Shown: positions 6,962-11,352 of the stretch, piece after piece
Numbering within the stretch: position 1 is the stretch's first letter
Layout: each line of letters opens with the position of its first letter
Source of the DNA: Nitrosomonas oligotropha
Lineage (GTDB): Bacteria > Pseudomonadota > Gammaproteobacteria > Burkholderiales > Nitrosomonadaceae
Direction of reading: 5' to 3'
DNA length: 64,000 nucleotides
NCBI RefSeq assembly: GCF_009833085.1
Contig: NZ_QRBZ01000003.1
Coordinates: 1 to 64,000, forward strand
Translations under genes and position numbers: made by a program
The notes under the pieces: model-generated
What the model saw: the letters and a program-made list of their open reading frames with translations, nothing else
What the model was told of the DNA's origin: nothing
The model's database searches: none

Positions 6962-8119
6962 ATGATCAGCATGCTTAAATCCATCCCGATAAAGAAATTA
7001 AGCCTTTTCTATACACAGTGTTGCGCTTATATCGTTGTTCTCTGCTGTTGCAGTTTTGTGCATGCCGAACCCATCGCGCTCGGCATGAGCACCTCGCTCA
7101 GCGGCCCCAATCAGTTATTGGGGCGCGCCATGTACCTGGGTATGAATGCTTTGTTCGAGGAAATCAATCAGCAAGGCGGTATTCGCGGCCGCATGATCAA
7201 TCTGACCGTACTTGATGACGGGTATGAGCCGGATAGTGTCAAAGTGAACACGATACAGTTGATTGATCAGCATAAAGTCATCGCCATTGTCGGTAACGCC
7301 GGCACGCCGACAGCCGCGATTGCCGCACCCCTTGCCAATGCACGCGGCGTGGTATTTTATGGCGCTTTCACCGGGGCCGATTTATTGCGCAAGACCCCGC
7401 CCGATCCTTATATATTCAATTTCCGCGCCAGCTACCGGCAGGAAATGGAGTTGATCGTACAAGATATTCTGGATCGCGGCATTTCTCCGTACCGCATTGC
7501 CCTCTTTTTGCAGGATGACACGCTGGGACAAACCGGTTTCGACATCACCAAGGCGGTTTTGGAAAAATCGGGGTTTAAGCATACCGATCGGCTGCTGGTC
7601 ACGCGTTACCCGCGCAATTCTTTAGCGATACAAAGCGCGATCAAAGCGATGATTCAGGCGACACCCAAGCCTGAGGCGATCATCATTGTGGGCGCATATC
7701 AACCCGCCGCTCAGTTTATCCGTTTTTCTCACCGCATTTTCCCCAATGCGCGGTTTTATAATTTATCTTTTTCCGCCGCTTCGCTACTGGCCGATGCGCT
7801 ACCCGGCATCCATGGACGAATCTATATGACCCAAGTGGTGCCGCCCGCAGAAACCGATTCCGAAGAGCAAGACTTCATCTGGCGAGAAGGCTATCTTGCG
7901 GCGCAGGTTCTGGTTAAAGCGCTGCAAAGCATCCCCGGACAAATCACCGGCGACAGCCTGAAACAAGCGTTGGAAGCATTAGGATCGGTTAATTTGGAAG
8001 GTTTTGGCACAGTCACCTTAAATCCCGGCGATCATCAAGCAAGCGATCATGTCTGGCTGACGCTTTTGGATAAGACCCGTCAATGGAATAGCGTGAAAAC
8101 TACCGGAGAAGATAATTGA
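6962..8119 (+). CDS. Orphan periplasmic ligand-binding protein (Peripla_BP_6, branched-chain amino-acid/amide type)
   Basis: The product has 385 residues. It begins with a signal peptide: positive KSIPIKK, then a hydrophobic stretch, with probable cleavage after VHA near residue 36. The mature part is a type-I periplasmic binding fold: IALGMSTSLSGPNQLLGRA, then an INQQGGIRGR motif and VIAIVGNAGTPTAAIAAPLA. These match LivJ/urea-binding ABC substrate-binding proteins. No ABC permease or ATPase gene is nearby. Instead the stop codon overlaps the TTG start of a Cache/channel-like receptor, which suggests that this protein delivers a ligand to a membrane sensor. A second ATG at 6971 is possible. 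The ligand is unknown; an amino acid, amide or short organic acid would be typical of the family. Confidence 0.85.
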   Translation: MISMLKSIPIKKLSLFYTQCCAYIVVLCCCSFVHAEPIALGMSTSLSGPNQLLGRAMYLGMNALFEEINQQGGIRGRMINLTVLDDGYEPDSVKVNTIQLIDQHKVIAIVGNAGTPTAAIAAPLANARGVVFYGAFTGADLLRKTPPDPYIFNFRASYRQEMELIVQDILDRGISPYRIALFLQDDTLGQTGFDITKAVLEKSGFKHTDRLLVTRYPRNSLAIQSAIKAMIQATPKPEAIIIVGAYQPAAQFIRFSHRIFPNARFYNLSFSAASLLADALPGIHGRIYMTQVVPPAETDSEEQDFIWREGYLAAQVLVKALQSIPGQITGDSLKQALEALGSVNLEGFGTVTLNPGDHQASDHVWLTLLDKTRQWNSVKTTGEDN

Positions 8120-10302
8120 AGGTAACCCCGCAACTGGAATCACCGGAACAAGCGAAGTGGACATTTACTTCCTGGATCAAGGGAATTCTCGGTATTTGCA
8201 CGGTCATATTCTTGTGCATTTTTATTGCGTCAACCAACGGCATGGTGCAGAAATACCGCACCACCTTGCAGCTATCGCAACAACATGCGGCCGCCACCAC
8301 GCAAACCATCGCCGATTCGATTAACGATCAATTTACCGCGCTGGCTTCCGCTGCCAATGAGCTTGCGGAAAACTTGCGGAAAATTTCCTGGAGCCAGGAA
8401 GCAATCGATACCGCATTGAACGAGGCGGCACTCAATCATTTTGGCTTCAATGCGCTGGGCGTAGCCTTCGATTTATACCAAGCCGACCCGCAGCTGCGTC
8501 TGTTTGCGCCGTTTATCCGCCAGCAAGGCACGGCCCATCAAATGGACCGGATCGATCAGTATTACGACTATACCGGTCACGCGGCGTATAGCGCGAAAAA
8601 CGGTAACAGCAAGAATAGTGACTGGTATCTGCAAGCCACCGGCGGAAGAAGCGGTTGGCTGGCGCCCTACTTTGATATGGCTTATCAACAGCACACGCTG
8701 AAGTATGTGCTGCCATTGCAAAAAAACGCGGAAAGCAGCAAAGTGCCTGGCGTAGTGTTTTTGGATATCGACCTGGACTGGGTCAGGCAGCAAGTCGAGA
8801 ATCACGATGTAGGCGATAACGGTTACGCGATCGTCGTCAATGAATTCGATCAAATTATCTATCACGGACTCAAGGGTTCCAAGAAAATCGTCAGCGACTT
8901 GAATCAGGCTATTACACCGACTTACTTTGCTGAATTCACGGCGGGGAAATTAGGGACCAACGAACTCACCGGCCGCTCCGCCTGGTTCAACCGCTACCCC
9001 ATCGGCGAAACCGGATGGTATGTGTTAACCGTGATGAATGCGGAAATTGGTAAGAAGCACTTATTTGAGAACGACGATGAAGAAGATACCCGGGTAATTC
9101 ACGAATCCGATTTAATCAGCTGGATCGTCAACGCGGTCGTGCTGTGCCTCCTGATTTATATCTGGATTGCGTTCGTCAAACAGCAGCAATCGGTCGCGCA
9201 GTTGCTGCGCCATGCATTTATCTCGTCATTGCTGTTGACCGTGGGCATCGTGTCGATCTGGATCACGGAATATTACACGCCTTCGGTAACTCACAATCAA
9301 TCGTTGACACTATCGAATCGCGCAATCGTCGAGCAATTTCAGAACGATTATGCCGTCGCTTCATTGCAAGAATCAAAAACACCACCCTTTTTTGTTCCAA
9401 CCGGTTTGTTCATCCAATCGATTGAATTTCAAAATGCCACCAACGTGGCGATAACTGGTTATGTGTGGCAGCGTTTTCCCAAGCACTTTGAAGAAGAGAT
9501 CGAACATGGCGTCATTTTCCCCGAAGCTATAGAAACATCTATAGACGAGGCGTATGAGCACGAAGAAAGCGATGAAATCGTCAAAGGCTGGTATTTTGAA
9601 GCCACATTACGAGAAACCTTCGATTACAAAATATATCCCTTCGACCGGCAACTTCTGTGGGTGCGTCTCTGGCCTACCAGTTTTTCCAAAAATGTCATTC
9701 TCGTGCCGGACTTTAAATCCTTCGATAGTCTGAATCCCAATACGCTACCGGGCGTTGAGCAGGATTTTGTTTTATCCGAATGGAATCCATCGCGAGCTTT
9801 TTTCGGGATCAAAGTGAATAAATACAACAGCAATTTCGGCGATCGCCAGTTCACCAGTCACGACAAGATGCCGGAGCTGTATTTCAATCTGGAAATTTCG
9901 CGCAACATTGTCAATCCATTCATTGCGCATTTATTTCCTCTGGCTGTCGTGCTACTGATGTTATACGGACTGGTTCTCACCATCTCCAAACAGGAAACGA
10001 AACTGACGATCACCGGTTTCAATGTATCGACCATCGTCGCCGCGTGCTCGGCGCTCTTTTTCATCTTATTGATTATGCACGTGCAGCTGAGAGACGAACT
10101 GGCGGTAAATACCATTGTATATTTGGAATATTTCTACCTTGTCTCCTACGTCACCATCCTGATGGTAACCGTCAATGCCGTGCTGATTTCATACGATCCA
10201 CCGCTCGGGATATTGGCATTTAAGGACAATTTCATTCCAAAACTTATTTATTGGCCGGTCTTACTGACTTGGATTTTTATCATTACTGCCATTCTATTTT
10301 AA
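8116..10302 (+). CDS. Cache-domain sensor fused to a pentameric ligand-gated ion channel (pLGIC)-like module
   Basis: The product has 728 residues. A TTG start overlaps the previous stop (TTGA) and is preceded by GGAGA. Predicted order: membrane helix 21-40; periplasmic double-Cache domain about 45-315 (DWYLQATGGRSGWLAPYFD at 169-187, DNGYAIVVNEFDQIIYHG at 234-251); helices about 335-355 and 366-386; an extracytoplasmic beta domain about 425-590; then four closely spaced helices at about 598-622, 632-656, 663-691 and 706-727. The beta domain has VWQRF at 450-454 and YPFDRQLLWVRLWP at 507-520, the Pro-loop signature of pLGICs (F/Y-P-F-D-x-Q). ISRNIVNPFIAHLFP leads into the first of the four helices as in GLIC-type channels, with arginine 596 and the M1 proline. 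Function as a ligand-gated channel is inferred from layout and motifs. Conductance and ligand are unknown. Confidence 0.8.
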   Translation: MKVTPQLESPEQAKWTFTSWIKGILGICTVIFLCIFIASTNGMVQKYRTTLQLSQQHAAATTQTIADSINDQFTALASAANELAENLRKISWSQEAIDTALNEAALNHFGFNALGVAFDLYQADPQLRLFAPFIRQQGTAHQMDRIDQYYDYTGHAAYSAKNGNSKNSDWYLQATGGRSGWLAPYFDMAYQQHTLKYVLPLQKNAESSKVPGVVFLDIDLDWVRQQVENHDVGDNGYAIVVNEFDQIIYHGLKGSKKIVSDLNQAITPTYFAEFTAGKLGTNELTGRSAWFNRYPIGETGWYVLTVMNAEIGKKHLFENDDEEDTRVIHESDLISWIVNAVVLCLLIYIWIAFVKQQQSVAQLLRHAFISSLLLTVGIVSIWITEYYTPSVTHNQSLTLSNRAIVEQFQNDYAVASLQESKTPPFFVPTGLFIQSIEFQNATNVAITGYVWQRFPKHFEEEIEHGVIFPEAIETSIDEAYEHEESDEIVKGWYFEATLRETFDYKIYPFDRQLLWVRLWPTSFSKNVILVPDFKSFDSLNPNTLPGVEQDFVLSEWNPSRAFFGIKVNKYNSNFGDRQFTSHDKMPELYFNLEISRNIVNPFIAHLFPLAVVLLMLYGLVLTISKQETKLTITGFNVSTIVAACSALFFILLIMHVQLRDELAVNTIVYLEYFYLVSYVTILMVTVNAVLISYDPPLGILAFKDNFIPKLIYWPVLLTWIFIITAILF

Positions 10303-10338: not shown

Positions 10339-11352
10339 ATGGAAGATAACCAATCGCCCGATCCTTATAAACAAACGAGTCTGAGGTATCAGCTCTACCG
10401 GGAAGCGCGGGCCATGGCCGAATACGCGCTTGCCAACGGCAAAACAGTGCCGGATAAAGTGATACGTACCATCGATACATTTACTGTTCAGAGCAATGCC
10501 GGTTTGAATGACCGGATTCATGTCCGGGCGGATCTGGATATCGGTGAATTGCTTGCCGCGCACTGCGCATTGGCCAGAATAGTGGAACCCGCCAAGCCGA
10601 ATACCATTTTGTTGCTGGACATCGAGCAAGGGGTTACCGGATTCATGAAATTTCTCGGTCCGGTTTCATTGATCCGCCAAATGATGATCGCGGCTATCGT
10701 GTCGCTGATATTATTCATCGGACTGACTTTGACCGAAGAAGTAAGCAACGACAGCGGCAATATTATGTTGCAGGATGGCTTGGAATTGCTCCTCAATCTG
10801 ATGTTCTATCTGGCCGCGGCCGGACTGGGCGCTTCGTTTGCCGCACTGTATAAAGCCAATACGTTTATCGCCAACGGTACTTTTGACCCCACGTATCATG
10901 CTTCCTACTGGATTCGTTTCTTTCTGGGTTTGATTGCCGGCCTGATTCTCGCCATCATGGTTTCCGAGGATTACTTCAGCAGACACTTGAGTGAAACGCC
11001 TTTCCTGGAAAAAGGCATTATCCGGCCGCTACTGGCCATGCTCGGCGGCTTCTCCGCCGATCTCACACACACGGTTTTGAGCCGCTTGGTTGAAACGATC
11101 CGGTCGTTGTTCACCGGCAGCCCGAAAGATCAGCTTGCCAACAAGAGGAAAGCCATGCAGGTGGATTTCGCCGCGCAACAGAACCAGCAACACATCAACA
11201 TGGCTTCCAATCTGATCGATCTTCAGCAGGTGATCAACAGCGGTGCGACACCGGAAGAAATCAATGAGAAAATTGATCGAATATTAAAAGATGCGCTGCC
11301 TAATTCGGATATCCGGTTAAAATCCGCGGAAAAACAGGATGATGAAAGTTAA
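10339..11352 (+). CDS. Unknown four-helix membrane protein, third gene of the channel cluster
   Basis: The product has 337 residues and is not a family I recognise. The ATG is preceded by AGGAG. Residues 1-105 are soluble. Four membrane helices follow at about 111-131, 149-171, 189-208 and 228-245, then LGGFSADLTHTVLSRLVETI and a hydrophilic, Gln/Lys-rich cytoplasmic tail to residue 337. It lies 36 bases after the Cache/pLGIC-like gene on the same strand and is probably cotranscribed. A helper, assembly or scaffolding role for the receptor is possible, but nothing in the sequence proves it. Confidence 0.7.
   Translation: MEDNQSPDPYKQTSLRYQLYREARAMAEYALANGKTVPDKVIRTIDTFTVQSNAGLNDRIHVRADLDIGELLAAHCALARIVEPAKPNTILLLDIEQGVTGFMKFLGPVSLIRQMMIAAIVSLILFIGLTLTEEVSNDSGNIMLQDGLELLLNLMFYLAAAGLGASFAALYKANTFIANGTFDPTYHASYWIRFFLGLIAGLILAIMVSEDYFSRHLSETPFLEKGIIRPLLAMLGGFSADLTHTVLSRLVETIRSLFTGSPKDQLANKRKAMQVDFAAQQNQQHINMASNLIDLQQVINSGATPEEINEKIDRILKDALPNSDIRLKSAEKQDDES

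Follow-up and report, generated by a model that had tools for sequence, protein, structure and literature searches.

Little is known of the signals to which bacterial relatives of the neurotransmitter receptors respond, or of the purpose of such sensing, and a gene of Nitrosomonas oligotropha raises the question of whether a sensor of the chemoreceptor type can be wired to one of these channels. The gene lies in the first 64,000 nucleotides of contig NZ_QRBZ01000003.1 (assembly GCF_009833085.1), the whole stretch analysed here and called the window, and it encodes a protein with a double-Cache sensor domain followed by a half resembling a pentameric ligand-gated ion channel (pLGIC). We consider it rather probable that this protein is a Cache receptor, perhaps fed by a periplasmic binding protein (PBP), with an ion channel as its output, so that sensing in the periplasm would be coupled to a channel.

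The initial annotation had described one open reading frame with the layout helix, Cache domain, two helices, extracytoplasmic domain and four helices, and hydropathy agrees with it, with seven membrane segments at residues 21-39, 336-354, 363-381, 603-621, 640-658, 673-691 and 710-728. The two extra helices between the Cache and channel parts, which had been pointed out as unusual, are real by this measure. A start near the TTG codon is required because the first internal Met of the protein, residue 43, comes after the first helix. The features of the gene are the following, conservation here and below being counted in a 16-row alignment that includes the window protein:

8116-10302, + strand: dCache-pLGIC fusion gene, one open reading frame, TTG start, 728 amino acids, seven predicted membrane helices
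8176-8232, + strand: first transmembrane helix (TM1), residues 21-39, by hydropathy
8260-9030, + strand: dCache_1 sensor domain, residues 49-305, by PF02743 and fold match to 6f9g
9121-9177, + strand: TM2, first helix of the Cache-channel hairpin, residues 336-354, by hydropathy
9202-9258, + strand: TM3 or M0, second hairpin helix, residues 363-381, by hydropathy; a like helix begins the Cache-less relatives
9376-9903, + strand: pLGIC extracytoplasmic ligand-binding domain, residues 421-596, by profile and fold match
9634-9651, + strand: Pro-loop YPFDRQ, residues 507-512, by sequence and alignment
9922-9978, + strand: M1, residues 603-621, by hydropathy and alignment; P608 is 12 past the pre-M1 R596
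10024-10101, + strand: M2, presumed to line the pore, residues 637-662, by model; R659 in 16/16 and H655 in 15/16 rows
10117-10194, + strand: M3, residues 668-693, by model
10231-10296, + strand: M4, residues 706-727, by model

The closest named record, from Nitrosomonas oligotropha Nm75, is 96% identical across the channel half, and the same architecture is present in relatives from several other families of the class. These relatives, together with the match of the channel-half profile and model to solved pLGICs, indicate that the fusion is not due to chance. Since the Cache domain joins through a membrane hairpin and not directly to the ligand-binding domain, the sequence gives no implication of the two stacked domains that had been supposed.

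The profile and the predicted fold identify the C-terminal half as a divergent pLGIC subunit, in line with the GLIC/ELIC-type module first proposed. Profile A2, made from 13 sequences including the window protein (320 positions), was searched against all PDB chains and matched 69 distinct sequences at E <= 10, the best 60 of which are all GLIC or GLIC chimeras. The alignment with the top GLIC match (E 3.4e-4) runs over positions 83-282 of the profile and brings both the Pro-loops and the pre-M1 Arg residues into register. An AlphaFold single-chain model of the fusion protein was obtained from 16 sequences (predicted local distance difference test, pLDDT, 76.9; predicted template modelling score, pTM, 0.62), and the 50 PDB matches that Foldseek listed for it are all pLGICs, with ELIC5 (8twv, E 9.1e-11) as the best. 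Residues 421-728 of the model superimpose on GLIC in VIA-align 2 with Z 19.4 over 274 aligned residues (root mean square deviation 2.9), and thus the structural check proposed earlier for residues 425-727 returned pLGICs with both programs. The VWQRF and YPFDRQ motifs that had drawn attention to this half have also stood up: W451 of the former is found in 16/16 rows, as is the Pro-loop pattern [YF]-P-[FL]-[DE] (YPFD in the window protein). R596 and P608 are each equally invariant (16/16), and their R+12 spacing occurs also in all nine of the Pfam-positive pLGICs compared. The subunit would presumably assemble into a pentamer and conduct ions.

No Pfam or NCBIfam model matches the channel half above its cut-off. 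Ceramidase, MASE6, Claudin_2 and other weak Pfam rows for the channel halves (best E 0.003, below cut-off) were discarded as chance among membrane helices because the channel half matches GLIC. Because the Pfam models fail to detect the members that were tested, further such channels are probably hidden in the databases. The predicted M2 is strongly hydrophobic and carries the conserved R659 and H655, and its register was tested with ungapped offsets between four relatives lacking the M1-M2 insert and nine Pfam-positive pLGICs. Offset 0 was the best overall (mean -4.8; next -16.4 and -17.8), and for M2-M3 alone the offsets +5 and -1 (-2.6 and -3.4) outscored it (-9.0). The register favoured overall puts F648 at position 9' of M2, where the pore signature is Leu/Phe, but M2-M3 alone slightly prefers other registers; in the favoured register the window protein has 9 extra residues from the pre-M1 Arg to M2 when compared to Pfam-positive pLGICs. 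An assignment of ion selectivity was dropped because the M2-M3-only offsets disagree with the overall register.

The sensor half is a double Cache of the chemoreceptor type, flanked by helices as in chemoreceptors and sensor kinases. In agreement with the domain first annotated, PF02743 (dCache_1) matches residues 49-305 with E 1e-12 and a score of 48.5 bits (cut-off 45), and the modelled fold is that of a double Cache. The best fold matches are McpU in complex with putrescine (6f9g, Z 21.3), MkcA, TlpQ, the archaeal kinase sensor 3lib, PacA and the uracil sensor 9hvj, and profile comparison gave 3lic (E 3.5e-25), 3lib, 3li8 and 9hvj. Regarding the ligand, the motif positions of amino acid-binding dCache_1AA domains have been described, including R126 of PctA, which contacts the ligand carboxylate (available part of PMC10104139). 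W170, Y171, Y185 and D217 of this motif are present in the window protein, and the key Arg is replaced by S168; among the 12 rows that have a residue at this position, one (L018) carries Arg and the rest Ser, Asn, Lys, Tyr or Thr. By this motif the dCache_1AA assignment was ruled out for the window protein. From the amine motif (dCache_1AM), the aromatic pair and the final Asp are present, and the insertion with R103/D133 of PctD has no confident alignment.

The arrangement of the helices is a stable trait of the group. The Cache domain is preceded by one helix and followed by two in all 15 Cache forms that reach the first helix, six of which are the window protein and its closest relatives (loci L016-L020) and one of which, L031, begins at a contig end; L014 has an additional predicted segment inside a Cache helix. 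Two truncated Cache forms retain both inner helices as well. Profile A2 also found 19 loci with PBP-fused pLGICs (E 3.5e-16 to 7.2e-7), and among these proteins with full N-terminus none (0/19) has helices between the PBP and the core, their single hydrophobic segment being N-terminal. The profiles behind the Cache and PBP labels were themselves made in part from these proteins, and a Pfam check recovered the PBP in 4/4 scanned proteins and a Cache-type domain over some cut-off in 4/6. Within the phylum sample, PBP-I-fused pLGICs of ~710-800 amino acids (L037, L042, L048, L055 and others) are a recurring feature of some genera, and the four of them that were scanned fall below the Pfam cut-offs for both pLGIC domains, with weak PF02932 matches in three (E 1.6e-4 to 2.6e-4).

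Eight Cache-less relatives (short forms) belong to the same clade and begin with a helix like the second one of the hairpin, predicted in 7/8 (not in L034). W382, at the outer end of TM3/M0, is conserved in 15/16 rows, three of them Cache-less. In a quick tree of 51 rows, with midpoint root and several long branches, the Cache and short forms group together in a clade of 25 rows (support 100) that is separate from the PBP-fused and the Pfam-positive pLGICs, and the eight short forms are one group (support 95) nested among the Cache forms by a branch of 85. Fragments (L010 second ORF, L033, L040, L056, L058, L094-L097 and L104) and junk ORFs (the second ORFs of L022 and L025) were left out of this tree. 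We would weakly infer from the sequences that the Cache fusion came first and that one loss then left helix M0.

In three genomes, which represent two families, the Cache-pLGIC gene is followed directly by a second, divergent pLGIC-like gene (L075:6897-8006, - strand; L071:7694-8794, + strand; L076:6356-6994, - strand), of 212-369 amino acids and with E 2e-6 to 1.4e-9 to profile A2; in L071 a third one, a short form, comes after it. Such tandem genes could encode heteromeric channels. In two genomes of different families, the gene just upstream of the pLGIC gene codes for a protein with an eCIS_core domain, PF13699 (L076:9218-10852, - strand; L078:5681-6871, + strand).

The neighbouring genes bear on the second part of the question, namely whether a binding protein feeds the receptor:

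6962-8119, + strand: type-I PBP gene (Peripla_BP_6, Leu/Ile/Val type), 385 amino acids, PF13458
8116-8119, + strand: 4-nucleotide stop/start overlap of the PBP gene with the channel gene, TTG inside ATTGA
10339-11352, + strand: gene for a 337-amino acid membrane protein of no known family, downstream gene in 5/5 loci (window, L016-L019)

The PBP matches PF13458 with E 1.8e-40 (140.1 bits against a cut-off of 31.7), and its best solved relative is 4kv7 (E 3e-64). The overlap, with the PBP gene directly upstream, is found in all five loci having the full upstream sequence (window, L016-L019), while at L020 a PBP tail sits upstream of the channel gene before the contig ends; in sequence terms, this arrangement suggests translational coupling of the channel gene to the PBP gene. 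We sampled 37 genomes of the genus (G000, G323, G747-G781; some L records may equal G genomes) and found the Cache form in five (G000, G750, G753, G767 and G776) and the short form in four (G323, G750, G764 and G771). The PBP orthologue (57-100% identity) is present in the same five genomes as the Cache form, the G750 copy being a piece at a contig end. Elsewhere in the genus there are only PBP fragments in G773 and a weak match in G323 (32% over 100 residues of a 980-amino acid frame). At two places in G773 a PBP piece abuts a piece of the 337-amino acid gene, the channel gene being absent; these deletion scars lie at L119:4421-4988 and L120:2785-2959, with the flanking synteny divided between both.

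No match to PF02653, the Liv-type permease, was found in the genome of the window (70 contigs, so that a gap is possible), and 12 of 14 control genomes have one. According to this, the PBP is without an obvious transporter of its own kind. Outside Nitrosomonas, L069 (another family) has a divergently transcribed PBP gene beside the Cache-pLGIC gene whose product is 42% identical to the PBP of the window, and we take this sequence similarity as modest support for the PBP link. The 337-amino acid gene was not found at L020, and within the genus it occurs in 4/37 genomes plus the fragment in G773. Its product matches nothing over cut-off in Pfam and NCBIfam, gives distant matches in the class (E 2.7e-5 to 5.3e-4), and yielded an unusable model (pLDDT 53.0 from one sequence). 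PADLOC returned no defence-system match for the PBP, channel or 337-amino acid genes.

How could these parts work together? A Cache domain located between two helices usually has a kinase or a methyl-accepting domain as its output. In the fusion protein, the Cache domain takes the place after which one of these domains normally comes, and it is joined to the channel via a short turn, predicted to be cytoplasmic, and the extra channel helix M0 (topology from hydropathy). The PBP is proposed to be the ligand-presenting partner of the fusion protein: the Cache domain would sense a small solute either directly or via the adjoining PBP, as LuxP acts on LuxQ. A conformational change of the Cache domain would then shift TM1/TM2, M0 would carry the movement on to the M1-M4 bundle or else to the ligand-binding domain of the pLGIC, and the pore would thereby be opened or primed. 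The output would be an ion flux across the cytoplasmic membrane, and the pLGIC domain may bind a second ligand, which would make the protein a coincidence detector. We propose the order solute, PBP, Cache, TM1/TM2, M0 and pore because the helix following the Cache domain leads via M0 into the channel and because it is established that binding proteins can act on sensor domains of this kind, with LuxP and LuxQ as one case (available parts of PMC6321045 and, for this pair, PMC3831638). What is observed is the set of parts, the order and conservation in which they occur, and the link between the genes. The signal would run in the direction given, with the PBP docking on the Cache domain.

A more specific and tentative version, to which we give somewhat less than even weight, is a three-part device. 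The orphan PBP would dock on the double Cache, as LuxP does on LuxQ, and the signal would pass via the membrane hairpin to a five-helix pLGIC gated from the membrane side by an accessory sensor and not only by its own ligand-binding domain. With the invariant Arg and the near-invariant His of M2 perhaps lining the outer pore, the channel could be sensitive to anions or to pH, and nitrite and acid are excreted by its host organism.

Several results weigh against the proposal of a Cache receptor with a channel output. PF02931 and PF02932 match none of the 13 members of A2, the window protein included, and PF02931 has no match in the whole genome of the window; neither has it in the 14 control genomes, the same model having matched 8/274 genomes of the class, and recognition by these models is a detection threshold and not a defining trait of pLGICs. 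When six other Cache-type members were scanned, dCache_1 was over cut-off in one (L014), L031 was below both Cache cut-offs and the truncated L072 had no Cache match; PF22673, another Cache-type model, was over cut-off in four (L003, L007, L014 and L035). The helices were assigned by hydropathy and the model, this model has pLDDT 76.9 and pTM 0.62 and does not fix the placing of its halves relative to each other, and the sequences leave doubt about how the M2 register compares with that of other pLGICs. As for the binding protein, among the 11 Cache-form loci outside Nitrosomonas (L069, L071-L077, L079, L080 and L082) a PBP gene is nearby only in L069, the contigs of L072, L077 and L079 ending upstream, and the 42% identity of the L069 PBP is only slightly higher than the values for the remaining PBPs of the order, which go up to 38%. 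These results do not support a PBP partner for every member; at most, some members of the clade would have the PBP as a partner.

This last distribution is also what would be expected if the channel were gated by its Cache and pLGIC domains alone and the PBP were unrelated or merely co-transcribed, and the co-presence of both genes in the genus could be the inheritance of one DNA block. We find this explanation doubtful, as it leaves aside the 4-nucleotide overlap in 5/5 loci, the presence of the PBP orthologue among the 37 genus genomes only alongside the channel (bar the G773 fragments), the PBP copy adjoining the channel in another family (L069) and the lack of a detected PF02653-family permease in the genome. 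The strongly hydrophobic M2 with its Arg and His raises another alternative, in which the pLGIC-like half has lost conduction and serves just to pass on a conformational change, for instance to another protein, and the second pLGIC-like gene found downstream in three genomes could be the conducting subunit. However, every row retains the superfamily landmarks (Pro-loop, pre-M1 Arg and M1 Pro) and nothing in the protein resembles a cytoplasmic output domain, which makes this alternative unlikely in our opinion. Finally, TM3 might be a cleaved signal peptide, so that the Cache part and the channel would become two proteins from one gene; the Cache-less relatives start with a TM3-like helix in the same way as an ordinary pLGIC starts with its signal peptide. 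W382 at the outer end of this helix is conserved also in Cache-less rows, unlike in a signal peptide, and no obvious small-x-small cleavage site was seen past TM3 (sequence read by eye, no predictor), so we regard cleavage as quite improbable.

If the proposed Cache receptor with a channel output is correct, the hairpin-linked Cache domain and the conserved extra helix would amount to modulation of a pLGIC through the membrane plane, and we know of no well-studied model that shows it. The layout offers a testable idea of what bacterial pLGICs sense, here in an ammonia-oxidising Nitrosomonas. As the PBP is in the same operon, the signal of the channel can be tested directly by ligand screening of soluble proteins.

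The closest comparison for the channel half is GLIC, the proton-gated pLGIC of Gloeobacter, with which it has the beta-sandwich and M1-M4 fold in common (274 aligned of 311) at ~15% identity in the structural alignment; the window protein differs in 420 extra N-terminal residues with the Cache domain and three extra membrane helices. For the sensor half, the dCache_1 domains of the amine and uracil chemoreceptors (McpU 6f9g, TlpQ 6fu4, PacA 7psg and 9hvj) have the same double Cache fold (Z 20-21), and S168 of the window protein stands at the position of R126 of PctA, the motif arginine of the amino acid sensors. LuxP-LuxQ, as far as the available sources describe it, pairs a PBP with the ligand-binding domain of a membrane receptor and is a functional analogy only, because the output of LuxQ is a histidine kinase whereas that of the window protein is proposed to be an ion channel. 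The ligand domain of LuxQ has a double Cache/tandem PAS fold. DeCLIC, on the available description, is like the window protein a pLGIC with an extra periplasmic N-terminal domain. This domain stacks directly on the extracellular domain of DeCLIC. It is composed of the lobes NTD1 and NTD2 and appears to affect gating, and DeCLIC is the only pLGIC whose N-terminal domain has been partly characterised according to the available part of a 2025 paper (PMC12664993); the word Cache is absent from both DeCLIC papers searched.

In the open-access literature, a search for Cache together with pLGIC brought up Tasneem et al. (2004) alone, which is not to claim absence from print, and no description of a three-part PBP-Cache-pLGIC device was found there. 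The available part of that work (PMC549065) reports fusions of bacterial pLGICs either with PBP-I or with MCP-N and Cache domains, as well as operons with PBP-II or stand-alone Cache genes, and proposes a chemoreceptor role. Its Cache- and PBP-I-fused acetylcholine receptor-type channels (ART-LGICs) embody the same idea, a periplasmic small-molecule sensor N-terminal to the pLGIC or encoded beside it. They are described as signal peptide, extra domains, ligand-binding domain and four transmembrane helices, and helices between sensor and ligand-binding domain are unmentioned in that part, so that in a comparison by description only they may have them. The operon partners described there are PBP-II or stand-alone Cache proteins, whereas in the window a PBP-I lies beside a Cache fusion. 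As far as the literature was compared, the kind of protein was therefore already known from the Cache and PBP fusions of 2004, and the present work would add to it the hairpin topology, a clade missed by Pfam and the PBP-I operon.

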